Positions 13,262 through 52,562 of a DNA stretch of 64,000 bases are shown piece after piece; the stretch's first letter is position 1; each line of letters begins with the position of its first letter. The notes under the pieces are model-generated. The model made no database searches and was not told where the DNA came from. It saw only the letters and a list, made by a program, of their open reading frames with translations. Made by a program: the position numbers and the translations under genes. This stretch comes from Hymenoscyphus infarciens (taxonomy: Eukaryota; Ascomycota; Leotiomycetes; Helotiales; Helotiaceae). The stretch is from positions 186,001 through 250,000 of the forward strand of contig LLCB01000012.1 of assembly GCA_001414345.1 (NCBI GenBank), written 5' to 3'.

Positions 13262-14166
13262 CTTGGTTGGGGTATTTCAGAAGGTGAATGGTTGGGAGGG
13301 AACTTTGAAACTAGGTATTGGGGTTGGGGGTTGATGCTTGAGGTAGGTCACGCTTTAGTTGAGGCGGGTCACGTGGCTATTCTTGAAAAAGGCAGTGTGG
13401 ACTTGGTTCTCCTTTTTGCGAGGAGTACTGAGCGTACAATCTGTCTTTGGTGGTTGGTATCGCTTTTTGAATTATTTTTAGTTTTGATATGCTAGTTTTT
13501 AGAATTCAGCACATTGCTACGCCATAGTATCAAGTAGTAGGTTTAGTAAGTTAAACTATTTAATCATATTATTGGAAAGTATTGGATGCTCTAAGTTAAT
13601 TAGATAAAGTCTGGTTTATTATAAAAGTAGTGAGTATGAAGTACTCGTCTAAGTAACATATATTCCGTTTAACTACTATAGACAGTTCAGACGACTTAAG
13701 ATATTTCAACAATCTATAACTATTGACCGTAGCGAGTTTAGAGTATATCTAGCTAGACTTGAAAAGCATAGTAGAGCAACGCGTTAGTTGACAGTTCATT
13801 TGTTTGACTAAAGGGATAAAATGCTATAAATACTTCACAGGAGCTTCTTTTGTCAAGGTAAGGCCAGACTTTGATTGGAATTACGTCTTCAGCTAATTGG
13901 CTGGATTATTAGGTACAAAAAGCAGTTTGAGATTTAGGCTTTGGGACCTGTCATTCTTCGAGGCAATCACTGTGATGTGATAAATTCACAAATAATCGAG
14001 TTAATATTGAAAGTGGTATACAAGAAAATGAATTCATTTTAAAATGATTGGCGATTGGTAGGCAAACGATCTAAAGAGGCGTGGTAAAATATAAATAAAG
14101 GAACTGGAGGACCGAAGGGGAGGGGCAAGTTTTAACTTACCAGTTAATCTTACTAGGTAAATTAGC
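13262..14166. other. Intergenic, AT-rich in its second half
   Basis: 13262-13500 is the presumed CutC promoter side. 13500-14160 is AT-rich and TA-rich with no open frame of note, possibly an old mutated repeat, but I find no termini or matching copy in the window. Confidence 0.4.
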
Positions 14167-22359: not shown

Positions 22360-23559
22360 ATGTCTTCTGCCAACGCTGACATCTTCAAATCGATTCCTCT
22401 GCCGAGTCTCGAGCACCCTTTCGGTGTGCAATTATGGCCCCTTTTCGATAAAGCCTTCACGGCCGTGAAGGGCTACCATCCGCAGGATTTCGACTTCCAA
22501 CCTCAAGTGACTCCAATGTCAACTTTGAAAGAAACGGCCGTCACGATTTTCACATACTACGTTGTAATTTTCGGGGGGAGGGAATTGATGAAGAATCGAG
22601 CGGCATTCAAATTGAATGTACCATTCATGATCCACAACTTCTACCTGACAAGCATCAGCGCGATTCTACTTGCACTCTTCATTGAGCAGCTTGTGCCAAC
22701 CCTCGCAAACCATGGCCTCTTCTATACCATCTGCGACGTCAAGGGTGGATGGACGCCTCCTTTGGTCATTCTCTACTACGTGAGCTGGATCTCCTGAGAA
22801 TCAGAAGACATTTTGGTGCTAACATCTGCCAGCTCAACTACCTCACCAAGTACCTCGAATTGATTGATACCGTGTTTCTCGTCTTGAAGAAGAAGCCATT
22901 AAGTATATTCACCCCTAAAAAATAGTACCGAAAAACAATTGCTAACATACATATCTGAAGCCTTCCTCCACTGCTACCACCACGGTGCCACGGCCGCTCT
23001 TTGCTATACACAATTGATTGGTTTGACATCGGTTTCATGGGTCCCAATCACATTGAACTTGATGGTTCACGTTGTGATGTACTGGTACTACTTCCAGAGT
23101 GCGCGTGGAATTCGCATCTGGTGGAAGGAGTGGATCACCCGGCTCCAAATCATCCAGTTCGTCATTGATCTTGGTAAGACTGATACCCCATTTTTCAAAA
23201 TTCAGCTGCTAACTATCGCTTTAGTGTTCGTATACTTTGCGTCATACACCTACTTCACCTCCACCTACTTCCAATGGATGCCAAATGCGGGTAACTGCGC
23301 TGGAGAGGAATTCGCCGCTTTCGCTGGAATGGGCATAATTAGCTCCTACTTGGTCTTGTTCATCTCATTCTACTTTGCCACCTACAAGAAGGATGGAAAG
23401 CGTCCTACTGGTCGCAAAGCTGCTCGCTCTTTGGTCGATGCCAAACTCCCCGACGTTACCGCAATTCTCGATACCAAACCAACTCCATCGAAGAAGAACG
23501 GATCTGCCACGACCACCGGCACCCCAAGCCCAAGAGTCACCCGATCACGCAAGGCCTAA
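22360..23559 (+). CDS. ELO family very-long-chain fatty acid elongase
   Basis: Four exons (22360-22779, 22833-22902, 22961-23173, 23225-23559) give 345 residues, the same size as yeast Elo2/Elo3. The ELO signature is intact: [18 protein letters not shown] at about 149-165, then the histidine box HCYHH at 167-171, which crosses from exon 2 to exon 3. Several hydrophobic membrane segments flank it (for example around [19 protein letters not shown] and [18 protein letters not shown]). The C-terminal tail is Lys/Arg-rich. The enzyme condenses malonyl-CoA with long-chain acyl-CoA in the ER membrane, the first step of each elongation cycle, supplying acyl chains for sphingolipids. Which of the fungal ELO paralogues this is cannot be settled by eye. 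Intron 3 is 51 nt with no stop, so an unspliced reading would add 17 residues. Confidence 0.95.
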
Positions 23560-24633: not shown

Positions 24634-27600
24634 ATGAGGCTGCAGTGGCGGAACCTGCTCTTGTCCAGCACGCTCCTGGGAGTTGCTTGGGCAAAGAAAG
24701 ATGGCCCCGCGGTCAAGCAAACACCTTTCGATTTTGTACCCTACAATGTAAACTATTTCGAAGATTCCGATGTCGTCCTCTTTATTAATGCCGTCGAATT
24801 GAACGCCTATCGATCAGACGATGCCGGTGCAACATGGGCAGTGGTGGACGATGTTCCAAAGGGGGCGCTGATGGAGCTGATAATGCACCCATTCGATTCC
24901 AAGAGGGCATATATTATTACAAACGAGAAGACTCACTGGTTGACCCAGGACCGGGGCAAGTCGTGGGAGAAGTTCTCGGTGGACTCGGTGGCCAGCATAT
25001 TCCAGTCCCAGGCCTTGACTTTCCACGCTGGCGACCCGAATAGAATTATTTTCAATGGAATGGACTGTACTGGCATATTCTGCGACGAGTTGGTAAGTTG
25101 CTACAAATGGCAGAGGTGTATGGACCAGTAACTAATACCCTTACTCTAGACTTATTATACCACGAATGGATTTGCGAAAACTAACCATCTGCGATCGGAT
25201 ACTATGGGTTGCCACTGGGCAAAATCATCCCCCGAATTCACAACTGGCGACAAAGATACAGATGCCCGCAGAATATTGTGTATTGGAAGGGGAAAATTCT
25301 CCCCATGGAGCAAGGACTATCGATTGGTCGTCTCGGATGACTACTTCAACTCAGCTAGTGGCGGTGCGATCCAGGAATTTGAACCTGAGCTAGAGGCTGG
25401 GAAGTTGGTGAAGGGTGTTGTTAATATGGCAGTGGTCACAAATTACTTGATTGTTGCGACATCTGCTGAGGGCACCGACGAAATGGCTCTGTATATCACA
25501 GACGATACCATCAAATGGCACCGAGCTGTATTCCCCCATGACCACAAACTTACTGAGAAGGCATACACAATTCTCGAGTCCACGAAATACAGCATCCAGA
25601 TCGATGTTTTGACTAGCAGCAGATTTTCTCAACCAATGGGAGTTTTCTTGACGAGTAACTCGAACGGAACCTATTTTACACGAAACATCGAGCATACAAA
25701 TAGGAATAGAGGAGGTATGGTTGATTTTGAAAAGGTGTCCGGCATACAAGGAATCTCTTTGGTCAACACCGTGGACAACTGGGAAGAGGTTGAAAAGGGG
25801 TCCGCCAATAAGAAGCTGAAGACCCAAATCAGTTTCGATGATGGCCGAACCTTCCACGGAATTACTTGCGAAAAGGAGCCTCTACATCTCCATTCCGTCA
25901 CCGAGCTGTCAAATTCTGGACGAGTATTTTCTAGTCCAGCGCCAGGAATTGTTATGGGAATTGGAAATACTGGAGATTCTCTCAAGGCCTACAAAGACGG
26001 GAGTCTATATATTTCCGACGATGCTGGATCGACATGGACATTGGGACTTGAAGGACCTCACAAGTATGAGTTTGGCGACCAGGGTTCCATTTTGGTGGCC
26101 ATCAGCGATAATGGGGCAACCGACGAGATTCAGTACTCTATCAACCATGGCAAAAGCTTCGCACCAGTTAAACTCCCCGAAAAGATTCGACCTGTCCAGT
26201 TGACCACCACACAGGACTCAACTAGTCTCAAATTCTTGTTGGAAGCCGTTGACCCGGAGAAACCAAGAGAGAAGGGTTATATTATCGCCTTGGACTTTGA
26301 CGATATGCACGAGGATCAGTGTAAGAAGGATCAGCTAGAGCTGTGGCCTGCTCGTGTTGACAAAGATGGCAACCCAAAATGTCTCATGGGTCATACTCAA
26401 TCTTTTGAACGACGCAAGAAGGAAGCTGATTGCTTCATGAAGAGCGAATTCAAGGATCCAGAGGTCATTACAGAAGACTGCACTTGCACAGATGACGATT
26501 TTGAGTGCGACTACAATTTTGTTAGAAATGAGGACCGCACGCAGTGCGTGAAAGTGGAAGGCAACCCCTTCGTCCTCCCGGAAGGTGCCTGCAAGGACCC
26601 GGAAAAAGATGAGAAATTCAAAGGTTCTTCTGGCTGGCGAAAAATTCCTGGAAATACCTGCAAGAGAACAGACGGAGCACAGAAGGATGATCCTGTTGAT
26701 AGGGACTGCAAGGACACAATAAATCCCCACAGCCCTTCCTCGGGCAAGATTGCTGTGACTGATTCCAAACTCCCTGGTACAAAGAAGTATCCGGAAGTGT
26801 ATCTCGAACGGACTGATATCAGTCTTGAGGCAGATGAAACAGTTATTGCGCACACTGATAAGGGAGTCTTTTTGTCTCCCGATCATGGCAAAACATGGGA
26901 ACAGATTCTAAAAGACGAGAAGATTGTGGCAGTCTACCCTCATAAGTTCTTCAAAGATGTGGTATTCTTTCTGACGGAAACCTCACAAGTATTTTACTCA
27001 GTGGAGCGAGGAGATAACATCCGAGAGTTTAAGACTAAGGATCCTCCGAACCGCGACGACTTAGTTGTCATGAACTTTCACTGGAAACACAAGGATTGGA
27101 TTCTTTGGGTTGGTGGTCGGGACTGCCCTGGCGAGGACTGTCACAGCGTTGCTTCAGTGAGCAAGGACAGAGGAGATACTTGGAAAACACTACGACGATA
27201 TGTCCGAAAGTGTGAATTCATCAAGGAAGAAAGACGACTTTACACCACACCTGCTGAGCAGCTTGGCAAAGACGACAACGAGCTTGACAATCTTATTTAT
27301 TGCGAGGTTCGAGAACATGAGCGAAAGGATGACAAGGACAACCCCTGGCTATTGGTTTCGAGCGAGGATTTTTTCACGGAAGAGCCCAAGGTACACTTTA
27401 AAAATCTTGTGGACTTCGCAACCATGTCCGAATTCATTGTCGTTGCTACCAGGGATGAAGCCCATTCCACACTCCGAGTCAATGCCAGTGTCGATGGAAG
27501 AACCTTTGCGGGAGCCCAGTTCCCCCATCAGTTCAGCTTCCCGCAAAGTGGATATACTGTTCTTGACAGCTCTACACACTCTGTCTTTTTGCACGTCACT

Positions 27601-29264
27601 GTCAATTCGGAAAAGGATTTTGAGTATGGAAGTATCATCAAAAGTAATTCCAACGGCACTTCCTATGGCCTCAGCTTGGAAGCTGTGGACCGAGATGCAC
27701 CTGGCTACGTCGACTTTGAGAAAACATTTGGTCTAGAAGGTCTCAGCTTGGCCAATATCGTCTCAAATTATGACAACAAGGACTACAAGAAACAGGGCAA
27801 GAGACTGAAAACAGTCATCACTCATAACGATGGTGCGGAATGGGCTCTAATTCCCCCACCAGAGAAGGATGCCGACGGAAAGAAATTCGACTGCAAGGGT
27901 GGTATTGAGAAATGTTCTCTCAACGTTCACGGTTACACTGAACGAGCACACAAATCCCATACATATTCATCCTCATCAGCTATTGGCTTGATGCTGGTGA
28001 CCGGTAGTGTTGGCGAATATCTTGGCAAAGAAGCGGATACATTCATGACCTCCGATGGCGGAATCAGCTGGTTTGCCGTGAAGAAGGGTAAATATATGTG
28101 GGAGTATGGCGACCAGGGCGCAATCGTCATCCTCGTGAAAGAGGGAGCTCCAACGAAAACCATTACCTACTCGACAGATGAAGGTGTTACATGGGACGAC
28201 TTTCAGTTTTCCGATGAAGAGGTCAACGTTGATGATCTCACTACTACTCCAAGTGACAACTCTCGCAATTTCCTTTTGTGGGTCAGAAAGAACGACGAGA
28301 TCCATACAATCAACATTGATTTCACCGGTCTCACAAACAAGAAGTGCGAGCTGAATGAGAAGGAACCCGAAAAATCTCCAGATTATTATCTATGGACACC
28401 AAAGCACCCGAAGCAACAGAACAATTGTCTCTTCGGCCATGTCTCGCAATATATCCGCAAGAAGACCGACAGTGTTTGCTATAATCCACGAGTGATCCCA
28501 GGTCTACATGAAATCAAGGAGAACTGCGAGTGTACGAGACAGGACTTTGAATGGTAAGTTGCACATATTCTCCAATACGGTTTCCGAGCTAACACAATAT
28601 AGTGACTTCAACTATCAACGTCAAGGTGATGGTACTTGTGCCCTTGTCCCTGGCTACTCTCCTCCTGATCATTCCTTGATCTGTAAGGTCGAGACTGAAA
28701 GAGTTGAATATTTCGCTCCTACCGGTTATCGAAAGCTGCCGATGAGTACCTGCCGGAACGGACGGGAATTCGACAAGAGCGAAGCCAAGCCCTGTCCTGG
28801 AAAGGAAGAGGAGTTCAATAAGAAGCACAGCACTTCTGCTATTGGTATCTTCTTTGCTGTTATCATTCCTATTGCCGCAGCTGCGGGTGTGGGTTATTGG
28901 GTATGGCGCAACTGGGCTTCCAATTTTGGACAGATCAGACTTGGGGAACAATGTAAGTCTTCACTCTCCCTCTATCTTCCCCACGGAATATACATGTTAA
29001 AACTTTCTAGCATCATTTGATAGCGAGGCTCCATGGGTCAAATTTCCGGTCCTGGCTGTTGCTGGTATTGTCGCTGTTGCGGCGGCCTTACCACTACTCG
29101 TCAGCAGTCTTTGGCGGTCGGCGAGAACGGCCATGGGTGGAAGTAGGGGCACGAGATTCACGACCAGAGATAGTTTCGCGAGAGGAAGGGGTGATTACGC
29201 TGTGGTTGATGATGATGCTGATGAGCTTTTGGGGGAGGAGAGTGATGATGAGGTTGCGGCTTGA
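24634..29264 (+). CDS. vps10: Vps10/sortilin-type vacuolar sorting receptor
   Basis: Four exons (24634-25092, 25150-28553, 28603-28952, 29011-29264) give 1488 residues, the normal length for fungal Vps10. A signal peptide covers about 1-20. Two luminal Vps10 beta-propeller domains follow, marked by repeated Asp-box motifs of SxDxGxTW type (SDDAGATW, SDDAGSTW, SPDHGKTW, SKDRGDTW, STDEGVTW). Each ends in a cysteine-rich module (ECDYNFVRNED and the matching CDFNYQRQGDGTC). Two hydrophobic segments lie near 1368-1389 and 1416-1438, followed by an acidic tail (DDDADELLGEESDDEVAA). The receptor binds soluble hydrolases such as carboxypeptidase Y in the late Golgi, carries them to the endosome and recycles through retromer. 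The TGG/TAA at the end of exon 2 falls on a GTAAGT donor, which confirms the splice. Confidence 0.96.
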
Positions 29265-33675: not shown

Positions 33676-36212
33676 ATGTTCAGAAACGCTCTCCGACAGT
33701 CCAGCCGGACGGTGGGCGCAATCTCTGCATCCGGCAGAGTCGCAGCAGTACGTAGCCAGAATGCCATCCCCGACCTCCTCCCTCCAGCTCGAATCCCATC
33801 GAGATTCATCGTAGCCTGCTCCACGAAATCAATTGGCTCGCTGCGATGATGAAGGTGGATGGGAGAGAGCTGTTGATGAAGCTCCCAACAGCTTGACTTC
33901 GTGTTTTTCGGGCTTCGGCTAACCTCAGGTTTCTCCAGGGACGAACCGCAGCACCAGCAGCATTCAACGCAGCATCAAAACAGATCCGAAGCTACGCTTC
34001 CGCCGACAAAGCGTCCCCAACCGAAGTTTCGTCAATCCTCGAGCAAAGAATTAGAGGTGTTAAGGATGAGGCCGGCCTCGCCGAGACTGGGCGTGTCCTG
34101 TCCGTTGGGTACGTCGATCAACATACAAATGCCTCAATGGTCAACACAGACTACATAATGGGTTTATACAAGGGGATAGAGCGCTGATTGGGTTTATAGT
34201 GATGGTATCGCTCGTGTTCACGGTATGAGCAATGTTCAGGCCGAGGAACTTGTCGAGTAAGTTACACGGATTGGGTTCAGAAGATTCACTTGCTGAATAC
34301 ATATAGGTTCGCATCTGGTGTCAAGGGCATGTGCATGAACTTGGAGGCTGGCCAAGTCGGTGTTGTGCTCTTCGGTTCCGATCGTTTGGTCAAGGAGGGT
34401 GAGACCGTTAAGCGTACCGGAGAAATTGTGAGTAAAAGGAGGTGCCAATTGACCTTGCAGCTACTGATAAACTTCACTCACAGGTCGATGTTCCTGTCGG
34501 AATTGAGATGCTCGGTCGTGTCGTTGATGCTCTCGGAAACCCAATTGATGGCAAGGGACCAATCAAGACCACCGAGAAGCGTCGTGCACAATTGAAGGCT
34601 CCAGGTATTTTGCCTAGACGATCCGTCCACCAAGCCGTCCAGACTGGTCTCAAGTCAGTCGACGCCATGGTTCCAATTGGACGTGGTCAGCGTGAGTTGA
34701 TCATTGGCGATCGTCAAACCGGAAAGACTGCCGTTGCTCTCGACGCCATATTGAACCAAAAGCGATGGAACGACGGAAACGACGAGGAGAAGAAGCTCTA
34801 CTGCGTTTACGTTGCTGTTGGACAAAAGCGATCCACCGTTGCCCAGTTGGTCAAGACCCTTGAGGAGAACGACGCCATGAAGTACTCCATCATCGTTGCC
34901 GCCACTGCCTCCGAAGCAGCTCCTCTCCAATATATTGCTCCTTTCACCGGTTTGTCTTTCCCTTTTTTTTGTGGTGTTCCACTCCTTCCCCCAACGTTCC
35001 TTCCTCAACTCCAGTAGACCGGGCTCAGCACCCACCAAGGCGTGGGTGTCCCTGCCCGATATACTAGAATTGAGGAACGCTGCTCAAGTCCTTCTCAATT
35101 CGGGCGGCGTCCAGGCTCCCCCATCACAAGAGTCAATCCGTGCTCGAAACTTCGCTGCCAAAACCAAGAAGGCAAAGAAGTTCTGGTGCTCTCTCTGCCA
35201 ACATGCTGCTACTGGACCTATGCGCCTCGAAAATCACAAGAACTCCGACGGTCACAAGGAGAAGGCAGAGGCTGCTGCAATAGCAGCTCTTTCTTCTCAA
35301 TAACTTTTCTCATGTCACTGATCTATCATTAACTCGACACCTTATGCTAATCTTTTTGGAATCTAGGCTGTTCTATGGGTGAATGGTTCAGAGATAATGG
35401 AAAGCACGCTGTTATCATCTTCGACGATCTTTCCAAGCAAGCCGTCGCATACCGACAAATGTCCCTCCTTCTCCGTCGTCCACCCGGACGTGAGGCTTAC
35501 CCTGGTGATGTTTTCTACCTCCACTCCCGTCTTTTGGAGCGTGCCGCCAAGATGTCCGAGAAGCACGGAGGTGGTTCTTTGACTGCCCTTCCTATCATCG
35601 AGACTCAAGGTGGTGATGTGTCCGCATACATTCCAACAAACGTTATTTCCATTACCGATGGACAAATTTTCTTGGAGGCCGAGCTTTTCTACAAGGGAGT
35701 GCGACCAGCCATTAACGTCGGTCTTTCTGTGTCCCGTGTCGGTTCCGCTGCCCAACTTAAGGCAATGAAGCAAGTCGCTGGTTCATTGAAGCTTTTCTTG
35801 GCTCAATACCGTGAGGTCGCTGCTTTCGCCCAATTCGGTTCCGATTTGGATGCCGCAACAAAACAAACTCTTAACCGTGGTGAACGTGTAAGTTTTCCCC
35901 GTCTCTACTACTGTAGATACTCGAACCCAGGCTAATCGTTTTATTTTACAGTTGACCGAGCTCCTCAAGCAAAAGCAATACTCACCTATGGCTGTCAACG
36001 AAATGGTTCCTCTCATCTACGCTGGTGTTAACGGTCACTTGGATACCGTCCCTGTTGCCAAGATCCTCACCTGGGAGGCTGACTTCATCTCACACTTGAA
36101 GACCAACGAAGCCGATCTTTTGGCCACAATTGATAAGGAAGGTGCTTTGAGCAAGGATTTGGAAGCAAGATTGAAGGATGTTGTTGTCACCTTCACCAAG
36201 AGCTTCGTATAA
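33676..36212 (+). CDS. atp1: Mitochondrial F1Fo ATP synthase subunit alpha
   Basis: Seven exons (33676-33747, 33939-34108, 34200-34256, 34307-34427, 34484-34949, 35367-35887, 35952-36212) keep frame throughout and encode 555 residues, the standard length. The first ~35 residues, rich in Arg, Ser and Ala, are the mitochondrial targeting peptide, followed by mature sequence around [20 protein letters not shown]. The P-loop GDRQTGKT is at 215-222, and the family signature [17 protein letters not shown] lies in exon 6. The alpha subunit forms the F1 hexamer with beta in the matrix; its nucleotide site is non-catalytic. Introns 1-4 and 6 are about 50-190 nt. Intron 5 (34950-35366) is 417 nt and contains an unrelated zinc-finger-like frame. 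Exon phases at its borders (G before, GC after) restore the invariant GCSMGEW, so the long intron call is firm. Confidence 0.97.
35016..35303 (+). other. Zinc-finger-like open frame nested in intron 5 of atp1
   Basis: Inside the 417-nt intron is a stop-free frame of about 96 codons. It contains [20 protein letters not shown], then a CSLC...ENHKNSDGH pattern, i.e. C-x2-C-x12-H-x5-H. This is the U1/JAZ-like C2H2 zinc finger spacing, followed by KEKAEAAA and a TAA at 35301. It is on the sense strand but not in phase with exon 5, even if the plausible internal acceptor CTCCAG ending at 35014 is used. It could be an exon fragment captured from another gene, an alternative terminal exon expressed from another start, or a nested gene. 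Sense-strand coding character is visible; expression is not. Confidence 0.5.
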
Positions 36213-38316: not shown

Positions 38317-41300
38317 ATGGCAGACGACCAAATCTCACGAAATATCAGATCCTTTCGCGACAACGAGCCCCTCTACCAGTCGATAAAAGACGAAATAGAC
38401 AGCTTTTCTGAAGTATTGGGGCAAAAGGGAATTCGACATATATGGGAATCAAGAGTCAAAACACCAGAAAGCCTTGAGGGAAAGCTACGCAAGCGACAGA
38501 AAGAGGGCAAGAGTGGTCTTAGCGGCATTGCAGATCTGGTTGGCGGGAGAATTGTGTTATTGAAGTCAAAGGACTCAGACACCGTCGCGGCTTTGATCAA
38601 GGAGAACTTCGAGCTTGAAGAAGACCCGATACAGCACCCCACCTCCAAAGAGCATAGTGAGCGACTAGGCCAACGGTTTCGTGGGTACGATGGACTCCAC
38701 TTCCGATTTCGCCTCAAAGAGAAACCGAAGTCAGACGTTGTTGTTGAAATACAAGTCGTTCACATCATCATGTGGCTTTATTATCAAGTCGAACATGATT
38801 TGGGCTACAAGGGGGGCCAGAATTCGAGAGAGCTCGAACACGTGCTGGAAAACTTGAAAGGGTTATCGAATTTAAACGCTTCTGCGTTTGAACAATTTGA
38901 GGAGGTTTTGGGAAAGGGGGGGTTGGAAGGAGGCAGAATTGAAGTCACGGGCCCTTTTACCTTGGAGAAACGAGCTGTTGCAAGCCAGATTCAGGTCTTT
39001 CTAGAGAACCATGACTTGTTGGAAACAACATTGAGTAGGTGCAAAATGATTTTGAAATTGAGCTAATATAGTAACGTAAACTAGGAAAAGAGCGACAAGC
39101 CTTGTTCAACTGGATATCCAAGCTTCAGCCCAAGCAAAATCATAAAACAATGGGGAAAGATTTCATGGCGGGTTCGGGGGAGTGGTTGCTAGGTAACACT
39201 TACTTCCAAAAGTGGATAGAACAAAATGAGTCCTCTATACTGTGGCTACATGGCATCCGTACGGATTCCCCTCTGCGCAATAGGAAAGCACTGTCTAACT
39301 TTGCGTAGCTGGCTCGGGGAAGAGTAAGCTTGTGTAGAAGATTCTACCCGAATTATCTTACAAGTGCTAACATCCTTAGATATTCGGTCATTCAACGCCT
39401 CACCAACGAAAAGACACAAAATCCTTCGGCTCCGCCACTTGCGTTTTTCTACTCTGCACGCAATGTATCTGAACCCGAGCGTTCCGACCCGGATGAGATT
39501 ATGCGAAGTATTTTGAAACAGCTATGCTGCACAAAAGTTGATATGCCCGTCAGAGAGCCGCTGGCAACTAGGTATAGAGAGTTAAAAATAGAAAGCCATG
39601 ATGAGGGCTTCGAGGAACCACCTAGGCTCACTTGTGGCGAGTGTGTTGATCTCATTGTTTCTCTGTTGGAATCCAGCCCACTCATAATCGTTCTTGATGC
39701 TCTAGATGAGTGCGATCACGCTCGACGGCACGAACTACTTCTGGCTTTCGATAAGATCATCCAGAATTCAGCAAGTGTTGTAAAGATATTTGTGTCTAGT
39801 CGTGACGATGGAGATATCGTTTGTCATTTGGAAAATTCACCAAACATATATATCAAAGTCAGAGACAACCACAATGATATTGAGCGTTTCGTTTTATCGG
39901 TGGTGAAACAATCTATTGCGGAGAAGAGGTTACTTAAAGGAAAGGTAGCAGATCAGCTGAGAGCACGGATTACGGGAATTCTTGTGGAAAAATCACAAGG
40001 GATGTAGGTAATGCTGTGAAATTTTTGGTGACGAAGTTGCTCATTTTTCCTTAGGTTTCGGTGGGTTAGTCTTCAGATCCAGAATTTATGCGATCCTCAA
40101 CGGATCAAGCACGAAAGGGATGTCATTGAAGAACTTGGGAGACTGCCTAAGACTTTAAATGATTCCTACGAGATCACCTATCGAAGGATACAAGATGCGG
40201 CATCTACAAGTCGTCGCGTTGCAGAGCTCGCGATGACATGGTTGCTATGCGCACTGCGTCCCCTGAGTACACAGGAGTTTGTTACTGCCGTATCCGTCGA
40301 CATCACCGCAGTGGATCCGAAGAAATTATACGTCACTCTGAGCTCATCGCAGCTGTTGGACATTTGCTGCAACATGGTTGTTTTAGACGAAGAAATGGAT
40401 GTCTTTCGATTCGCACATTTATCCGTGCAAGAATATTTCGAAGGAAGAAGAGAGTTCGGCAGGGTTGCGATAAATTACACAGCTATGGAAATATGCACTC
40501 TGATCTGCCATCTTCAACTTAGAACATATCTAGCGTCGTATCGGCTGGCAATCACCCCGCTGCGGTTCATCGATTATGCAATTATATTCTGGCCTGTTCA
40601 TTGCACAGCTGTTGGCAACGAATTGGAATCGAGACTCAAAGATAGGATAATTGGGCTCATCTCCTCGAGCTTCGCGGCGTGGGTATCAGCTGCGAGGATG
40701 GCTGCAAGGCGCGTGGATCCTATAACTTACGAGAAACTCACAACCCCAAACATGTATGATATTCCATCAACGCCCGTGTCTTTTGTTTCCTGTTTTGGAT
40801 TACTTTGGCTTTTAGAGTCTGGGATTGTTGAGTCTTCGTGGAACAAAGAAGACACAAATTCCAGTCCTCTGGAGGTCGCAGCAAAATACGGGCGAAAAGA
40901 GATGGTAATTTTTTTACTTGGAAAAAATGAGTTTGTAAACAAAAACCGAATTCTTGAGAATTCACTTTCACTGGCCATATCGCAAGGACAGCTAGAGATT
41001 GTAGAGCTGCTGCTGCTCCGAGACGACATTGATTTGAACTGCGCGAGTTACCGCTACTCCACTCTATCCTGTGCCTGTACAGTTGGAGCGCTGGAAATCG
41101 TCAAGCTACTACTACAAAAAAAGGAGGTCACTGTCAATAACGGAAGACCTTTGGTTAGAGCTTGCGAGGAGGGACACTTGGAAATCGTTGAATTACTACT
41201 TCAAAGAGACGATATTGATGTAAACTCCAAGGACGAAATGGGCTGTAGCCCATTACTAATTGCCTCTGCGAAAGAGGACCTGGAACTCGTTGCATTACTG

Positions 41301-41588
41301 CTCCAGCACAAGGATATTGAAATAAATGCTACGGATAAAAGAGGCCGTACACCCTTATCAATAGCTTCTGACAAAGGAAATCTGCAATTAGTTATGCTGC
41401 TACTCCAAGAGGAGGATATTGACATAAATTTCGCAGACAAAGACGGTTACACGCCGTTGTCTTTTGCAGCAGGGGGAGGCCAGCCAGAAGTCTATAATCT
41501 ATTGCTTGGAATCCCTGGCATCGTCAAGGATATTAAACTACCACCGAGAGAACCATTGTATTCTGACGAAGATGGAACATTGGATTAG
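38317..41588 (+). CDS. NLR-like protein: RelA/SpoT-like domain, NACHT NTPase, ankyrin repeats
   Basis: Five exons (38317-39034, 39085-39258, 39309-39333, 39380-40003, 40055-41588) join in frame to 1024 residues. Residues ~35-175 match the RelA/SpoT synthetase fold. They contain SRVKTPESLEGKLRKR (45-60, ATP-site basic motif), DLVGGRIV (Asp73), RGYDGLHFRF (Tyr124, His128), VVVEIQ (Glu144) and HDLGYK (160-165), so the expected catalytic residues are all present. A linker QALFNWISKL then SGEWLLGNTYFQKWIE leads to a NACHT domain. Its Walker A is GIPGSGKS (296-303), rebuilt by splicing, and its Walker B is LIIVLDALDECD (407-418). About seven ankyrin repeats follow (~780-1010; for example GHLEIVELLLQRDDIDVN). 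NACHT-ankyrin proteins act in fungal self/non-self recognition and programmed cell death. The N-terminal domain would be the effector, possibly making a (p)ppGpp-like nucleotide. That activity is inferred, not shown. Confidence 0.9.
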
Positions 41589-41989: not shown

Positions 41990-44280
41990 CTTGACAGAGC
42001 TCTAGCTAATACTAGTTATACCTCACTCGAGTCAATTACAGGTATATATACTTTTGCTAGATCTATTCCACTCATAAACCACTTGCGCTATTATCTGCAC
42101 TAGTTGAAGAGGCTCGGCTTTATTTTCGCGTAAAGCAGCGAGGAGAATATTATCTAGGAAGAATATCAGTAGTCTGCATTTTTCTTCTTCTCGTCTAACA
42201 CCTACTTACGCCTAGAGGCAACACAATCGAGTAGTAGTGGAGTATGACCTATTTGCTATATAAGAGTTCTGTAATCATTTGCTATACAACTAAATAATAT
42301 CTAGACGTTTTGAAAGAAGATAAATCTATTATTAGTTTGAGACTTACGAAAAACAGATAGAGTTATAGTTCTAATTATCGGTGTAGCAAGCTAGATAAAG
42401 GAGCTCTAATTAGTTTAAGCACACTCTACGTACGAACCTTGAATATAAGCTTTATTCCTAGGAATTCAAACTATATACTTGAAAATTAACTATATATATA
42501 TAGAATTCAGAATCACTTACTACTTATAAATTTACTAAAAACTAACTCAAGTTTTATATATTTTCCTTTCTATTCTCGTATATCTTTATAATATTACTAT
42601 CTGAAAAATAGAAATATAAAGTATCTTAGTTATAGACGCTTTTTTTATTAGCTCTCTCTTTTTACTCTTAGCTACTCTCTCTATACTCTGCTCTAATTAT
42701 CTCTAATCTACTAATTATAGCTACGGATCTAAAAAGAGCTATATAGCGCTTAAGAGACTTACTTATTATCTTATATTTAAAAAGCTTTACTAAAAGAGTA
42801 GTTATTTTAGTATATATTAGCTTATAATATTAGTATATCTACTTCTACTACTTCTACTATTACTTTTATACTCTTTTATTCTTCTTTCTACTTAATATAT
42901 CTTATCTAAGATATTATAAAACTAATACTACTTCTAATACTAAAAAGTCTACTAAAAAAGCTTTAAAAGCTACTAAAAAAGCTTTTAAAAAGAAGATCTC
43001 TTAGGTATAGCTTAAAAGTAATACTCTATTTATCTCTATACTTAGTATATAACTTCTGCTAAAAGAGTATTCTATTAGTATAGAATATAAAGAAATAAAC
43101 TTTTAAGTAAATTACTCTATCTATCTTATTATAATAGCTTACTACTCTGAATTACTAGTATTTATAAAACTACTAATTTCTATAAACTAAGAGTATAAAT
43201 TACTAATACTTATATAACTAAAAGTACTAAAGATATTAATATCTAATATTAATATATAAAAAAATTAAAGTTCGAATATTATATAGTTAGCTTTTTAGCT
43301 CTTATTATTTAGTATTAGCTATATTAGATAAGACTTAGTTATTATTATTATTAGACCTTAGTAGTTTCTAATCTCTTATATATAGATACTTATAATTAGT
43401 ATAGAAGAGAGATAGTTTTTTCTTTTCTTCTATATTAGAGCTTAGTATTTATATATATTATTCTACCTCGAATATACTATTATATATCTCTTTATTAGTA
43501 GTATATATTTCGTACTATTATAATATAAAGACTTTTTAAAAGTAGTATAATATATATTTATTTATTATCTAATTATTTAGATAATATATTTAGTAATTGT
43601 TTAGCTTATATATCTAATATCGTAGAGCTAGTATTTAGTCTTAGATTAGTATACTAGCGTAAGTAAAGAAGATAAGATTTACTAGAATATATTCTAATTA
43701 TTATAGTTTTAGTAATAATAGAATAATAATCTTTTCTTAGTAAGAATAATCTTTTATATAAAAATTAGATTATATTACTAAATAATCTAGCTTAAGAAAT
43801 ATATAAGCTAAACGAATTAGTATATATTAAAGTATTAAATATATTAAATTATCTAGTAGTTTTATAACGCCTTTTTAGTAGTATATATACTAAACTATTC
43901 AAAAAATATACTAGCTAAATAGGCTCTAAATAAAGAGATAGAAAGAATTATAAGCTATTAAATAATCTCTTTTCTCTTTTAAATAGCTTAAATTTAGCTT
44001 TTACTCTCTTAGTACTTCTAAATTAGTTTAGTAGTATTATAGTTTAAAGCTACTTAGGTTTTAGTCTAAAACTATCTTAAATAAGAGTAGTTCCTAACTA
44101 GACTACTAAATACGTCTATATATAGAGTTTAAGAATAGCTAAAAGAATAGTATATATAAATACTTACTAGCCTTTATAGAATAACTAAGAGTAATATATT
44201 AAACTTAATAAAGAAGAAGAAGAGAAAGTAAAGAGAGATAATAGTAGTAGACTATATTTTAAGCCTAGTTCTTTAGAATA
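41990..44280. other. RIP-mutated AT-rich repeat sequence, left part of the transposon island
   Basis: Extremely TA-rich sequence with stops in all frames and few CpA/TpG dinucleotides. It is the older DNA into which the copia element inserted, since its last bases (GAATA, 44276-44280) are duplicated after that element. I cannot assign the original element type. Confidence 0.7.
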
Positions 44281-44450
44281 TGTCGGTATATATTTAAGAG
44301 TAAATAGCGATTCGGATTAGTATACGTGAGCACACGTGCTTCTTACTTAAGAGCTACTTAAGTAAGTATTATAGCTAGCTTTACTTAGTATATACGAACG
44401 ATAATATAACTCTTTTTATATTGCTTTTATAACTATAAGTTATACTAATA
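44281..44450 (+). repeat. Left LTR of the copia element
   Basis: 170 bases. By hand comparison it differs from the right LTR at 21 positions, 20 of them transitions, as expected of RIP rather than neutral drift. Its last bases (AATA) differ from the right LTR's AACA by one such change. Confidence 0.93.
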
Positions 44451-45279
44451 CTAATTAGTAGACGTATAGATTAGATTAGATACTTAGTTACTTTATATAT
44501 TTCTACTATAGATATACTTATATAAAAGTAAACTCGATATTACTAGTAGACTCCTCTTCTCTAATCGTGACTTCTTCTACTGTTTAATAACTTTAATAAT
44601 ATATTATAAACGCTTCTTAAGATAAGAAGTGCTAATTATAAATACTAACCCCCTTTTATCTACTAAGACAATTTATACTCTCTAAGACACCTATTTACCT
44701 AAAACCCGAATTCTCTTTTACTTACTAAGTAGAGTATAAACGGACTTTTAATAATATCTAAATTTAATTTAAATAATAATAATACTTATAATATAATAGA
44801 CTTACTAATATTAATTCTAATAACTTTAGAAGCTTTAACTTCGATACTAACTTTAGTACTAAAACAGGCTCTAAAGCTAGTACTAAAGCTAAAGTCGATA
44901 TAGATAGAAGAGACGATTTTTGCTACTAAAAGAGAAGAGGAGTATACTAAAGAAGAGAACGAAGACCTTCTTTTTTAAGACGAATTTTAAGTAGACTTTA
45001 AAAGATAGGATTAAGATAAATTCGCTAAAATCTACTAATCTACTGCTACTAAGTTATAACGAATACTTTATAGAAGAGGTATATAGGTTAAGATAGATAG
45101 ATATAAGATACTTATATCTTAAGTACTATATAATACTACTACTAAGGTTAACTAAACTAAGTAGTTAGACAAAGAATTAAAAGATATAGTATTAAGAGAA
45201 GCTAGTACTAAAGACTTTAGTTCCTTTTATAAATATATAATAGAATATGCTAAAAGATAATAAAAGCTATAGTAATAAT

Positions 45280-45345
45280 AACTATAACCTCTATAACCTC
45301 TATAACCTCTATAACCTCTATAATAATAACCTCTAGCTGAAAATA
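45280..45345 (+). repeat. 9-bp tandem repeat inside the copia Gag region
   Basis: Five near-perfect copies of ATAACCTCT lie head to tail, then trail into ATA repeats. In the mutated Gag frame this would have been a Gln/Pro-type repeat; that is a guess from RIP reversal logic. Confidence 0.6.
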
Positions 45346-48300
45346 TTACTTAAAATACTTAATCTAAGATAAAGGCTAGAGACGAAGCTTTATAAGCCTC
45401 TACTATATAATAATAATAATAATAATAACTAATATAATAACCGATATCTTTAATAACCTTAATCTTACTAACTAAAAGGAAAGACTTAAGTAATCTAGTA
45501 TAACCTCTAATCTAACTTTTAGGTCTACTAAAAGACAACTAGACCTCCTTCTTTATATCTTATTAATTTAGTAAAGATACTAGTAGTAACAATTTTAACA
45601 ATGCTTCTAAGTATCTAGAACATAATTAGTAATAGGATAATCTTAGTAGAAGACTACTAGTATAAATAAATATAGTATATTTTAAACTAGAGTTAACTTT
45701 ACAAAATTCTTAAAAGAGTTAAGACTACTTATATATATTAAGTATACTTATAAAAGTATATAAAGACAACTAAAAGTATAGTAGAAAAGAAGATAACTTT
45801 ATAATTAAAGTTATAATATTTAAGAATATATATAAGAGAAGTAAGGTATTACTAGTAATTTACTCTCTTATCTTCTCTATTATACTAAAAGGTAACGCTT
45901 TAAATTACTTTTATACTACGCTTTTTAATAAGTATAATAATTAATCTTTTAAAGTTTTATTTATATCTATATAATAATATTTTAAAGATAAACTTTATAA
46001 AAGAGGCTAATTATCTAAGTAGAATAATATTAATTTATAAGAAATAATATAAATATCTAGAATATTAATATTAAAGTCTTTTAAAGATATATTATTAAGA
46101 CTTAATTTATTAAGATTTTCCCTCTCTACTAACTTTTATACTAATAGTCAGTTTTTAAATAAGCTAATTTTAGTATATAAGAAGGTCCTAGATTATACTA
46201 TTATAATATTAACCTTATCTTAAGACTCTTTAATTTCTAATACTATTACTCTTCTATAAAGTTCAATCTAATTCTATTTAAAAGTCTACCTAGAGATAGT
46301 TATAAACAAAACTATAATAACTAAAAAACACTTCTATAAAAGTAGATAATATAGTATAAACAATTTTAATAATATAGATTAATATAAGAAGAAGAAGACA
46401 TATTATATATATAGAAAAGACAACTATTTATCTTAGGATTATAGTTAAGAAGAGTAAGACTATTACTTTACTAAATAGACTAATAAGAATTCTAAACACT
46501 TTAAAGGTAAGTAAGATAGGTATACTAGAAAGGTATATAATATAAATATAGTATATATTTAAGGTATATAAGAGAAGGAGATATTAGAGATACTTTATAC
46601 TATTGCTTTATTAAAAGAAGATAGTTACTTATTAGACACTAGCTTAGATAACGAAGTTATCTATTATAATATTACTTTCATAAGATTTATTAATAACTTA
46701 AATACTAAACATCTTACTATAAATTTAATAAGTTTAATACAAAAACACACTATTAATAGATATATCTTATAAAACCTAAATAATCTAAATAACACTTCTA
46801 ATATTATATATAAATTTATAAAGAAGGTGTTTATAATAATAGTTAAAAGATATATAAAAGAGAACTTTTTTAGCGTAATAATTAATACTAGAGTAGCTTA
46901 AAAGTTAAGTATAGAATATAACTAATATCTTATATATATTAGACTTATTAAAAGCATTCTAATTAACGAAGATATAAAGAGTTAATTTAATATCTAATTT
47001 AATAAGAGATATACTCTATCTTTAGAATTAATAATAATTAATATACTAATTAGAAAAGCTAAATTCTATATAGTATAATCTAATACCTCTTTTATCCTTT
47101 ATATTAATAATATAGATAACTTGAATATTACTTTAAATAATCTTTAAAATATACTTATCTAAGAGAATAAGAAAGGGATAGAAGTTAAAAGGTTCTCTAT
47201 TATATAACGATTTAGATACTCTTTTCTACTCTAGGATAAAGCTATATATAACTTTATATAGAAGTACTCGACATTTCTTATAGATGTTAATATTTAATAA
47301 CTTTATAAGTAATTTAGCTACTTATTAGTACTAAGATTATAACATATATTAGAAAGAGCTAAGTATCGTATTAACTAAGGTATTCTTTAATATCTTACTA
47401 AATTTTACGAATACTATTAAAAGTACAGAAGTTCGCCTAGCTAATTTAAGTTCACTCTTTATAATAATCTTAAATTTAATTATAGTATTTTAATTAATAC
47501 TTTCTTTCTTAATAAGTAGGCGGTCTTATACTATATAGACGAAGTAATAAAGTATTAAGTAGGTAACTTTTTACTAGATATAAAAGTAATAACTATATAA
47601 GAGGTCTTCTAAAGATATTAGATTAATATATATCTTAGACCTCTTAATTATATTATTATAGATACTAGGATAAACTTTATTAGAAAAGACTTTATATACT
47701 CTGCTGCTAGAATAGGTACTATAGTGAAAACTATACTAGTTAAGGTATATAATTTAATTAGTATAGTAGAACGTTATTATAAACTAATTTAATAGATATA
47801 TAATATTATATATAAATAAGAGCTCTATCTCTTATAAAGTTTAGTACTTTAAATAGCTTTTAAAGTAATTAACGATATAGTAGGCTTAAATAGACTAGTC
47901 TCTATTTTATTAGTATATAGAGTATATACTTAAATAACTATAACTAATATACCTTTATAACTAATTTCTATAAGGTCTAAGACTTATAAAAAGGCTACTT
48001 AAGAGGTATAAAAGTAGATTATATCTTCTTAAGTTAAAGAAGCTCTTAATATACGAAATAGACTAATTAACTAAGTTAAGAACTTACTCTTAAATTTAAA
48101 CGTTTTAGTATAAAGAGAGTATATAAAGTCTTAGATAGAACCTTTTATTCTTTAAGGAATTAAGAATAAGAACTATATTATAGTATTACTAAGCGGTCTT
48201 ATAAAGTTTTAATCTATAGTTATAAAGCTATACTTTATTAAAACTTTTAAAACTTCTAGAATAGTACTAGTAACTAAGGAAGTTTCTAGTATAGCACTAT

Positions 48301-50320
48301 CTAAAATAATACTATAACTCTATAAAAAAGAAGGAACTTTTAAGTAATAGAGTAAGTAAGATATTAAATAATATTTACCTTCTCTCTAATACTAACTTTA
48401 ATAGTTATAAATCTACTAAAATACTAATATTCTAGAAACTATACTAAAACCTCTTTAGAAGCGTAGACGTGAATAGCTTTAAAAGTATTCAAGGCCTCTA
48501 AGTAATATTAAAGTATTATTTTAGTAGTTAAATACTTTTATTAATAATATTAATTATATTACTTTTAAAGATATTAAAACTTTTTTTACTAATTTAAGCA
48601 AACCTTATAATATTAAAGTCTTTATAACTAATAATAGTATAAAATATATTAAATTATAATAAAAGGAGATTAATAGATTAACTAATTATAGTGTTTTTAA
48701 GATTATTACTTAGAAGGAAGTACCTCTTAATACTAGAATATTTAGATTACGCTTTATAAATATTAAAATTAAGAGTATAGTACTTACTTTTATAAAGTTA
48801 AGATTAGTAATCTAAGTATATAATAATATTAGAAAGTTACTAGTGCTTACTTAAACGCTTATAATTTAGAGAGTAAGCTAGAGAATAATTCTTATACTTA
48901 TTATAATACTTCTAGGTTTATAAGTATTTATTTAGAATATTATATAAGTATATATATAATTATTAACTAACTTAAATTAGAAATTCTTTATACGCTTTTC
49001 TAAAGGTTATTCTTAATAAGAGAATATATTCTTTAAAGTAATTAGGCTATTATATAGTATTCTAGAAGCTAGTAACTATTAGTTTATAATATATTATAAA
49101 TACTATATTATAAAGCTTATAATAAAATAGTTAATATTCGACCTCTGTCTTTTATATACTAAGTTCTACTAATATAACGAGTAAGTAAAATTGAATACCT
49201 CTTTTAGTATAGTAGGCTATTAAACTAACGATACTCTTATACTTACTAATAACGCCTTTATTAATAAAGAGGAGGTTACTATTAATAAGACTGGTTTTAT
49301 GTCTAAAAAAAGAGAAGAGCTTACTATTAACTATCTAATTAAATTTAATAGAGAGCTAATTACTAAGTATTAAGATAGCTTTATATCTCTTATTTAAGAT
49401 TATATTAAATACTTAAATTTAATATAAGAAGTTTTAACTAAGATATCTAATATAAAAGAAGTATTATATATAGTAGATACTAAAGATTAATATATTATAT
49501 AATATACTAGAGAAGTATACTTAGCTATGTTATCTTAACCTAAGGCTGCTTTTGACTTATTATATACTACTTAAACTATTAATTCTTAAGATAATAATAT
49601 TTCTCTTTTTAATAAACGAATTTAGTAGTAAATTAATAATATTATAAGAAGACTTAAATTTATTAAGTTAAATAAATCTTTTCTAAAGTTATACGCTTTT
49701 ACTAATAAATCATTTACTAATAATAAGAACTTATTATTATAAATCAGATATATTATTACTCTTATAAATAAGAATAATAATACTAATATCTTATATTAGT
49801 CTTCTACTAAATATAAGAGAGTTATTTATAGTGTTTTAGCATTAGAATTATATATAATAAGCTCTAGATTTAATACTATAGCTTTAATAAAATTAACTTT
49901 TAAAAGTATCTTAGAATTTAAAGTACTACTTATAATATATACTAATTTAAGGTCTATTTACAAATATATAGCTAAACTAAGTATAATTAAAGAGAAGTAA
50001 CTAATAATTAATATTATATATCTATAAGAAGTATATAAATTAAAAGAGATTAATAAGATTAAATAGATTAATAATAAGAGTAATTCTATAGATACTATAA
50101 CTAAAAAGAGTTGTTATAATACTCTATAAAAGTTAATTAATACTAATAAGCTAGATATTAATCTTATAAAATAGGTAGAACGAAATAAGAGATAATAGAG
50201 GAACTAAAATAGAGCCTTCTTATTAGTCGACGATAGAGAATAGAGGGCTCTAATTAGTTAGATTAGATAGGAGATTTTAATAATTTTTAAGTAACTTTTG
50301 TCGTTTTAAAGAAGTACTAG

Positions 50321-50490
50321 TGTTAGTATATATTTAAGAGTAAATAGCGATTTAGATTAGTATACGTAGGTACACGTGCTTCTCGCTTAAGAGCTACTTA
50401 AGTAGACATCGTAGCTAGCTTTACTTAGTATATACGAACGATAATATAACTCTTTTTACATCGCTTTTACAACTATATATTATATTAACA
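50321..50490 (+). repeat. Right LTR of the copia element
   Basis: 170 bases from TGTTAGTATA to TATATTAACA, followed by the target duplication GAATA. It retains the canonical TG...CA ends. Confidence 0.94.
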
Positions 50491-50495
50491 GAATA

Positions 50496-50804
50496 AGTAG
50501 ATTTTAAGTTATTTAGAGTTTTATTAGAAGAAGAGAAAATACTAGTTTCAAAGTACTAATAATACTATAATTTATAAAATATAGCACTTTTAGTATATCT
50601 AAATAGCTTTAATATATAATTATTATCGAAGTATAAGTAAGTATAAAAAGTAGTAGTAGAGTATATTAAATTATAATATATTTAGATATAAGAAGTCGAT
50701 TTTCTAGAATATCTAAGAGAGGCTACTATAGTATCTTCTATACCTGGTAATATTTTTTCTTTTGTTTTTACGATTTTTCTACCTAGAGTTATTTAACGCT
50801 ATAG
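50496..50804. other. RIP-mutated AT-rich sequence between two retroelements
   Basis: This is the continuation of the older repeat interrupted by the copia element at 44280. No coding frame or terminus is visible. Confidence 0.6.
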
Positions 50805-50809
50805 AGTTT

Positions 50810-52562
50810 TATAACGTATTTTTAGGTTGAAAACGCTCTGAGAAGCTTGAATTTAGAAGGTGAAAACTCTGCTATATATATAGGGAAAAGGGGTTACGTA
50901 AGACCCTCTTTTTCTGTAATATATCTCTTAGGTCTAGGAGAGACAGCTTCCTAGGCCTATAAACTCAAACTAGATTATAAAAGAACCTCTTAACTATATC
51001 GCCCTCTATTCCTGCTATAGAGAAAACCTACAGAGCTATGTATATTACTTTAAACTCCTGAACAGCGATTCCGTAGTATTCAAGGGTAAATTCCCACTCC
51101 TAGATCCTGTCCAACTTCCTCTCTTATTTTGGTGAAGACAGCGGGTGGCGTTCGTAAGATATAGTGGCTCGTAGTCAGCGTTGTATACTAGCTTCGTAGA
51201 GTACTAGGCTTCCGAATTCGAATATATCTTCGAGCACCTCTTAGAGTGAGCCAGCGCGCCGCTGGGCTTCCGGTTTTGAATACACCCCTGAGAGTGGCGG
51301 TGGCCAGCTTCGTAGCTGGGCTTTGTGCGAGCTCTTCAAGAGTGAGCTGCCGATTGAAGTGTGCCTACTCGTAGTCGTAGTAGAGCTTTCGCTATATTCG
51401 AAGTTGAGAGAGTCCTGTGGGAGAGTCTCGTCTACGCTTATTAAAAGAGTCCTTATTCGTGCTTATTAAGAAAGTCTCGTATTCGAAGTTAGAAGAGCCC
51501 TACTTCAATCGTAGTAGAGCTTTTAAGTACTCGTCGAACGTAAGTATTAAGAGGTTAGTTATACTAGCTAATAGCGGAGAGCGTTCTAAATACGTTGTAA
51601 TACGTTGAATATATAAGCAGAAGTTATAGAGTATACTATATATATAAACCAGGCTTATAATTATAACGTATTTTTAGGTTAAAAACGCTCTAAGAAGCTT
51701 GAATTTAGGAGGTGAAAACTCTACTATATATATAGAGAAAAGGGGTTACGTAAGACCTCTCTTTTTCCGTGATATACCTCTTAGGTCTAGGAGATAGCTT
51801 CCTAGGCCTATAAACTTAAACTAGATTATAAAAGAACCTCTTAACTATATCGCCTCCTATTCCTGCTCTAAGTTCTATAGAGCTATGTATATTACTTCAA
51901 ACTCTTGAATAGCGATCCTAGATAACATTTAAGAGTAAAGTCTCACTCCTAGATCTTGTCCAACTTCCTCTCTTATACTCTAGCACGTTATTAGCTCTGG
52001 CTTTGGTAAAGACAGCGGGTAGCGTTCGTGGATATAGTAGCTCGTAGTTAGCGTTGTATTTATACCAGCTTCGTAGAATACTAGGCTTCCAGATCGTCTT
52101 AATCGAGCACCTCTTAGAGTGAGCCAGCGCGTCGCTAGGCTTCCGGTTCGTAATACCTACTCGTAGTAGAGCTTTCGCCATATTCGAAGTTGAGAGAGTC
52201 CCGTAAGAGAGTCTCGTCCACGCTTATTAAGAGAGTCCTTATTCGCACTCGTTAGAAGAGTCTTATATTCGAAGTTAGGAGAGCTCTACTTCGATCGTAG
52301 TAGAGCTTTCGAGTACTTATTAAACGTAAGTATCAAGAGGTTAGTTATACTAACTCTAATAGTAGAGAGCGTTCTAAATACGTCGTAATACGTTGAATAT
52401 ATAAGCAGAAGTTGTAGATTACACTCTAAGTATAAACCAGGCTTATAACTATAATATATTTTTAGGTTAAAAACGCTCTAAAGAGCTTGAATTTAGGAGG
52501 TGAAAACTCTACTATATATACAGGGAAAAGGGGTCACGTGAGACCCCCCTTTTTCCGTGACA
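50810..52562. mobile_element. Non-coding miniature LTR retroelement (TRIM-like) with three LTRs and two internal units
   Basis: The order is LTR (50810-50921), internal unit (50922-51661), LTR (51662-51774), internal unit (51775-52449), LTR (52450-52562). The LTRs are about 113 bp. The best-preserved end reads CCGTGACA and the starts read TATAACG, consistent with original TGTCACG...CGTGACA inverted ends after RIP. The 5-bp target duplication AGTTT is at 50805-50809 and 52563-52567. The two internal units (740 and 675 bp) are homologous over their length, with one lacking part of the middle. Neither carries a protein frame of note. This is the structure of a terminal-repeat retrotransposon in miniature that has been tandemised by recombination. 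It is less mutated than the neighbouring copia element, so it is probably younger. Confidence 0.82.

Follow-up and report, generated by a model that had tools for sequence, protein, structure and literature searches.

A predicted NLR-type protein with a RelA/SpoT synthetase-like N-terminal domain in the fungus Hymenoscyphus infarciens

Gene model and domain organization

The DNA analysed here, referred to as the window, is a stretch of 64,000 nucleotides from the genome of Hymenoscyphus infarciens (GenBank assembly GCA_001414345.1, contig LLCB01000012.1, positions 186,001–250,000, forward strand). A gene predicted on its forward strand, at 38317–41588, encodes a NOD-like receptor (NLR)-type protein of 1024 residues, in which a RelA/SpoT-type synthetase domain is followed by a NACHT module, a winged helix and ankyrin repeats. 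The gene comprises five exons, and the removal of four GT..AG introns of 46–51 nt leaves a single open frame; this frame starts at the ATG at 38317, the first in frame past the upstream stop, and ends with a TAG at 41588. The model rests on the splice sites, on Pfam and on a relative from Hymenoscyphus albidus (P0003), and at the level of sequence it is confirmed that one predicted gene joins the RelA/SpoT domain to a NACHT-ankyrin receptor body.

Exon 1 (38317–39034) encodes the small alarmone synthetase (SAS) domain in residues 1–200 (38317–38916) and a low-confidence linker in residues ~201–239. Intron 1 (39035–39084, 50 nt, GTAGGT..ACTAG) precedes exon 2 (39085–39258), in which the NACHT module starts and which contains the first half of the Walker A motif. 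Intron 2 (39259–39308, 50 nt) lies within Walker A, with a frame continuity also found in P0003, and the 25-nt exon 3 (39309–39333) supplies the remainder of the motif and the residues SKL. After intron 3 (39334–39379, 46 nt), exon 4 (39380–40003) carries the NACHT core with the Walker B sequence IIVLDALDECD at ~39684–39716. Intron 4 (40004–40054, 51 nt) is followed by exon 5 (40055–41588), which contains the winged helix (~40200–40439), the ankyrin repeats (~40866–41507, as delimited by the helix pairs of the model) and the stop codon.

The RelA_SpoT family (PF04607) matches residues 45–168, N-terminal to NACHT, and scores 38.3 bits (cut-off 27, E 1.8e-9). NPHP3_N and NACHT cover residues 269–457 (E 4e-34 and 2.7e-6, respectively), and the winged helix, GPIID_WHD, is found at residues 563–642 (28.7 bits, cut-off 27). 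At the C-terminal end, Ank (PF00023, E 4.6e-31) occurs in seven stretches at a lenient limit of E 10, and Ank_2 (E 5.7e-37) has its best stretch at residues 818–907. Walker A (GIPGSGKS) and Walker B are both intact. Structure models were obtained with AlphaFold2 for exon 1 and exon 5, each folded separately; the helix list of the exon 5 model (pLDDT 88.5) was read by us as seven to eight ankyrin-like helix pairs. A sequence-only reading of this DNA had already proposed a single spliced gene uniting a RelA/SpoT domain, a NACHT module with intact Walker motifs and about seven ankyrin repeats, and the frame, the domain matches and the exon 5 model bear it out. Sequence and predicted fold thus support the identification as an NLR-type protein headed by a RelA/SpoT synthetase domain.

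The synthetase head

The motifs of the head were placed by alignment, with residue roles taken from published work. The ATP-donor motif S45-R46-V-K48-T-P-E-S52-L-E-G-K56 lies at 38449–38484, and metal-binding Asp73 and adenine-stacking Arg78, within DLVGGR, at 38533–38550 (roles from PMC11782079). The acceptor loop (G-loop) and the next strand form the sequence RFRGYDGLHFR, residues 120–130, at 38674–38706, which includes Tyr124 (role from PMC5794853), and catalytic Glu144 and Gln146, within EIQ, are encoded at 38746–38754 (PMC5794853, PMC11782079); all of these are read on the forward strand. The mapped ATP-donor, metal and acceptor-base positions (R, K, S, K, D, R, Y, E and Q) are all nine kept and are invariant among the nine divergent NLR-type domains described below. 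The active-site residues that had been pointed out from the sequence, SRVKTPESLEGK, Asp73, Tyr124 and Glu144, are all present.

The exon 1 model (pLDDT 83) shows a predicted RelQ/RelP-like synthetase fold without an HD hydrolase domain. RelQ and RelP rank above FaRel2 and CapRel, which also match, a ranking that does not decide the substrate. In the PDB, a sequence-only search with the synthetase domain gave no match even at E 10, and a profile search was needed to obtain matches. The one PADLOC candidate model matched, PDC-S33 (E 2.2e-6), and the PHROGs family phrog_9640, of unknown function (E 1.9e-14), add nothing beyond the RelA_SpoT-like assignment. No antitoxin-like domain was detected by Pfam in the 1024-residue protein. 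The earlier reading had suggested checking the head by a profile search and by its fold; the first gave the PF04607 match above its cut-off and the second a predicted SAS fold with structural matches of the RelQ/RelP type.

Relatives and the NLR-type clade

With a profile of the synthetase domain, 7998 proteins were scored and 1509 of them matched at E ≤ 1e-4; each of the 120 matches listed carries PF04607, so that the RelA_SpoT match is not a chance one. Relatives were collected by shared words or by profiles, which favours conserved motifs; a first protein search, based on shared exact words within a length range, listed three relatives, the alignment-based search being far wider. Five of the relatives (P0015, P0051, P0053, P0055 and P0116) are of bacterial type, ~420–460 residues long, with RelA_SpoT and ~200–250 residues that carry no precomputed Pfam domain; P0051, P0053 and P0055 match PDC-S33, and P0053 matches phrog_9640.

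An alignment of 80 sequences was used for a midpoint-rooted FastTree phylogeny, composed of 77 of the 123 collected proteins (the remaining rows having been dropped), the window domain and two further loci of the genome, C57 and C5. P0003 was excluded, as its gene model begins within the synthetase domain. Nine NLR-type domains form one group with a local support of 0.937, which is adjoined by the stand-alone protein C57 of the same genome (split support 0.994), a sister relation that is valid only with the root outside that group. Within the group, fusion to an NLR-type body is seen for the window protein, P0001 and P0002, the other six members (P0004–P0007, P0013 and P0014) being metagenomic single-domain models. 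All nine NLR-type domains have the acceptor sequence RFRGYDGxHxR, which the 71 other aligned sequences, C57 and C5 included, lack; residues R122, D125 and H149 are likewise limited to the nine.

P0001 and P0002, both from Coleophoma crateriformis, are 45% and 44% identical to the window synthetase domain, respectively. P0003 has the NACHT-ankyrin part in common with the window gene, at 63% identity across 68% of the query; its gene model is in frame over introns 2–4, and in it the C-terminal end of the synthetase domain and NACHT-ankyrin belong to a single protein. Because that frame is continuous and starts inside the synthetase domain, the same fusion is present in a second genome. In the metagenomic P0004 the spacing between exons 1 and 2 appears near-identical, read by the gene finder in another frame.

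The linker ahead of NACHT (window 39020–39090) is ~30 residues shorter than in P0003, and an LHDSLK-type stretch of P0003 and some NACHT relatives falls within the residues missing from it. An LHD-type motif upstream of Walker A is not universal: of 117 NACHT relatives examined, 105 have a Walker A pattern, and 25 of these have the motif. The short linker was considered as the mark of a broken allele; damage is not claimed, and P0004 apparently has the short form too.

The synthetase head is carried by three receptor bodies: NACHT-ankyrin in the window protein, NACHT-WD40 in P0001, and a STAND-like nucleoside triphosphatase (NTPase) with TPR repeats in P0002, whose NTPase matches fall below the Pfam cut-off. 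Among the best 120 of 169 relatives found with the RelA-NACHT query, many of them fragments, a hand count gave PF17100 in 71 and RelA_SpoT in three (P0001, P0004 and P0005). The best-matching NACHT gene elsewhere in the genome, C109, has a marginal upstream PF17100 match that scores 29.4 bits alone and 31 bits together with its neighbours, the cut-off being 30. This mix of heads and bodies is in keeping with the combinatorial assortment that Dyrka et al. described (PMC4986451).

Other RelA_SpoT and NLR genes of the genome

Three RelA_SpoT places were detected genome-wide, the window gene among them, together with at least 58 NPHP3_N stretches, each of which is an exon piece, the number being a lower bound. 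C57 (L005:3397-4533, reverse strand) is a stand-alone PF04607 protein in a single frame, 358 residues long from the first ATG, with a low-complexity N-terminal tail of ~150 residues and with the mapped synthetase positions, including Ser52. C5 (G000:C5:143891-146239 = L004:3192-5540) has an open frame of 782 residues (745 from the first ATG), a long, partly proline-rich C-terminal part and eight of the nine mapped positions, with Arg at position 52. It lies outside the NLR-type clade and groups with a protein of the fungus Thozetella and five of metagenomic origin (support 0.883). Neither NACHT nor ankyrin was found by Pfam in C57 or C5, whose extra parts are of low complexity or unannotated. 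About 0.6 kb downstream of the C5 RelA_SpoT gene, on the same strand, a NACHT/NPHP3_N stretch with three in-frame stops (C5:146883-147218) may be either a separate decayed NLR or a broken fusion.

Genomic surroundings

Upstream, the gene is flanked by an ATP synthase alpha/beta-family gene, part of which lies at 35351–35932. Downstream, an AT-rich block of 18.5–28% GC extends over 42–51 kb, starting ~0.5 kb past the gene, with strong ratios of the kind left by repeat-induced point mutation (RIP) at 42000–51000 (TpA/ApT 1.42–1.93, (CpA+TpG)/(ApC+GpT) 0.06–0.46). The gene itself, with a TpA/ApT of 0.72, has no RIP signature; it therefore adjoins a decayed-looking island, yet is not mutated in the RIP manner. 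Ordinary neighbours identified by Pfam are a GH16 enzyme (10647–11459), CutC (12512–13276), an ELO fatty-acid elongase (22903–23556) and a Vps10/sortilin receptor (25150–28554). ARAGORN detected no tRNA genes in the window, and Rfam gave no match at gathering score.

A known class and a copy with its mapped active site kept

The RelA_SpoT-NLR architecture is a known class, already catalogued in fungi. A RelSpo-like N-terminal domain was described in 2012 for NWD5 of Podospora anserina (Pa_5_1230; PMC3321046), which is induced 3.62-fold in incompatibility (PMC3689799). Dyrka et al. in 2014 listed RelA_SpoT among 12 effector classes, with the putative function “ppGpp synthesis” (ppGpp, guanosine tetraphosphate; PMC4986451), and it was among the 19 profiles from which a 2022 survey set out (PMC9815663). 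A 2025 survey of Sordariales reported 14 T-NACHT RelA_SpoT NLRs, 82% of its RelA_SpoT NLRs (PMC12258605), and in a 2023 review the class is described as minor yet intriguing, with little documentation of what (p)ppGpp does in fungi (PMC10197012). The remark in the sequence-only reading that such domains might already figure in fungal NLR surveys has thus proved right, since the class is named in several of them. In the passages of these surveys that were covered, WD40 members were found but no RelA_SpoT-NACHT-ankyrin entry. As to the alarmone enzymes, Atkinson et al. found Mesh1 among fungi in Cryptococcus neoformans alone, and reported divergent synthetases from Gibberella and two Aspergillus species (PMC3153485). 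In the passages of openly licensed papers that were covered, we found no report on the product, killing activity or receptor control of fungal RelA_SpoT NLR domains, and in the open-licence literature no paper on toxic small alarmone synthetases (toxSAS) in fungi.

RelA_SpoT has been a named fungal NLR effector class for more than 10 years, and in the window copy the mapped active-site positions are intact; a related stand-alone gene occurs in the same genome. If an alarmone were made, or tRNA modified, a eukaryotic immune receptor would be using the chemistry of the bacterial stringent response and of phage defence. The published yeast ppGpp/Mesh1 system (PMC5527313) makes the question of the product experimentally approachable.

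Proposed mechanism and alternatives

We think it probable, with some reserve, that the protein is an NLR-type receptor with a SAS-like N-terminal effector, in which ligand-triggered assembly of the NACHT module leads to the pyrophosphorylation of a purine nucleotide, with ATP as donor, and to arrest or death of the cell. A ligand would bind the ankyrin repeats, the NACHT module would exchange its nucleotide and then oligomerize, and the synthetase heads, clustered or released, would become active and move pyrophosphate from ATP onto the acceptor. Most probably a nucleotide of the (p)ppNpp type would be formed, the acceptor being GDP/GTP or ATP, and harm would be done both by this product and by the depletion of ATP and of the acceptor, resulting in growth arrest or death. 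By analogy, the arrest step draws outside support from Saccharomyces cerevisiae, in which expression of a bacterial relA fragment yields ppGpp and inhibits growth, both effects being abolished by human Mesh1 (PMC5527313). The mechanism advanced in the sequence-only reading is likewise still inferential, and its interpretation overall is partly supported.

Several observations weigh against the favoured reading. Identity to the solved synthetases among the ten best structural matches is 14–21%, and the nearest NCBIfam model, the YjbM equivalog, scores 21.5 bits, far under its cut-off of 320. For FaRel2 Arg77, a fifth basic residue that binds triphosphate, the head offers no equivalent that is both exact and invariant: position 59 varies, and the adjacent R60 is kept in eight of nine NLR-type domains. 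RelQ Asn148, of the allosteric pppGpp site, aligns with Trp153, so that RelQ-type activation is not transferable and the head is not filed as RelQ. The acceptor loop is unlike that of RelQ/RelP, and the acceptor may therefore be other than a guanosine nucleotide; among its arginines, R120 is found in 70 and R130 in 75 of the 80 aligned sequences, and only R122 (9/80) marks the clade. The linker shorter than that of P0003 belongs here as well. Finally, no HD_4 domain was found in the 65.6-Mb genome by a search in six frames, exon by exon, which an intron-split Mesh1 could escape and which did not extend to Nudix hydrolases; as a control, the domain was detected in 10 of 14 genomes, all prokaryotes. 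With no hydrolase of the HD_4 type detected, the cell would have difficulty in undoing the signal, and a signal without an eraser would suit a one-way effector.

Two candidate explanations concerning Trp153 were dropped: RelQ Asn148 as a guanine contact, as PMC5794853 places this residue in the allosteric site, and, for the same reason, a change of base choice by Trp153 alone.

A more far-reaching proposal is put forward tentatively. The NLR-type RelA/SpoT domains may constitute a distinct eukaryotic synthetase subfamily with its own acceptor site, RFRGYDGxHxR, shuffled among NACHT-ankyrin, NACHT-WD40 and STAND-TPR receptors and making a cytosolic death or growth-arrest nucleotide (or an RNA modification) other than classical (p)ppGpp, in genomes without a RelA/SpoT homologue (RSH) hydrolase. 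They would then represent a nucleotide-poison arm of immunity parallel to the PNP_UDP effectors, a parallel taken from one sentence and its reference in PMC10197012.

Among the alternatives, the one that survives best, with a modest chance of being correct, is that the head acts as a tRNA pyrophosphokinase of the toxSAS type. Its sequence and fold are closer to the nucleotide-directed RelQ/RelP, and its conserved acceptor-loop arginines match the positive patch that is large in alarmone synthetases and small in tRNA-directed FaRel2 (PMC11782079); neither decides the substrate, and the arginines lean towards a nucleotide acceptor. It is improbable that the head is a pseudo-enzyme or adaptor that has lost catalysis and binds only nucleotides or partners, as might be read from a position 59 unlike FaRel2 Arg77, given the nine mapped positions invariant in nine divergent relatives. 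Similarly improbable is the proposal of Dyrka et al. (PMC4986451) that ppGpp serves to manipulate bacteria, whether competitors, pathogens or symbionts: a route of export is not apparent from analyses that did not include signal-peptide prediction, the one Podospora gene of the RelA_SpoT class is counted as upregulated in vegetative incompatibility but not in either of two confrontations with bacteria (table in PMC4835503), and ppGpp directly harms a fungal cell (PMC5527313). Least likely by our estimate is a gene-model artefact, with synthetase and NLR exons on separate transcripts, or a dead copy: the shorter linker and the RIP-like block ~0.5 kb downstream would agree with it, but four canonical introns restore a single frame, the domain is fused to the receptor in full in P0001 and P0002 and with its end in P0003, and the gene lacks the RIP signature of that block.

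Comparison with known systems

The receptor with a synthetase effector favoured here has its closest known counterparts in the fungal RelA_SpoT NLRs, namely NWD5, proteins of Gaeumannomyces graminis, the class of Dyrka et al. and that of the 2025 Sordariales survey, which like the window protein have PF04607 N-terminal to NACHT and C-terminal repeats. NWD5 and two of the three listed G. graminis proteins are RelA_SpoT-NACHT-WD40, whereas the window protein has ankyrin repeats instead. Within the Helotiales, P0001, P0002 and P0003 share with it a synthetase domain (in P0003 its end only) and an NLR-type body; they differ from its NACHT-ankyrin organization in the WD40 repeats of P0001 and the STAND-like NTPase and TPR repeats of P0002, and P0003 has a longer linker and a model starting inside the synthetase domain. 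The stand-alone C57 and C5 have PF04607 as the window protein does, without the RFRGYDGxHxR loop, C57 being adjacent to the NLR-type domains in the tree.

In bacteria, RelQ/SAS1 (YjbM) and RelP/SAS2 (YwaC) resemble the head in predicted fold and in the nine mapped active-site positions, but they are stand-alone homotetramers (PMC5794853), whereas the head is fused to a receptor and has another acceptor loop. The toxSAS enzymes FaRel2, CapRel and Tas1 share the same core fold, with lower structural scores, and are known from bacteria and phages. CapRel, in which the synthetase is fused to its own antitoxin part, offers a functional parallel to the receptor fusion, the control in the window protein being exerted, on the reading favoured here, by the NACHT-ankyrin receptor.
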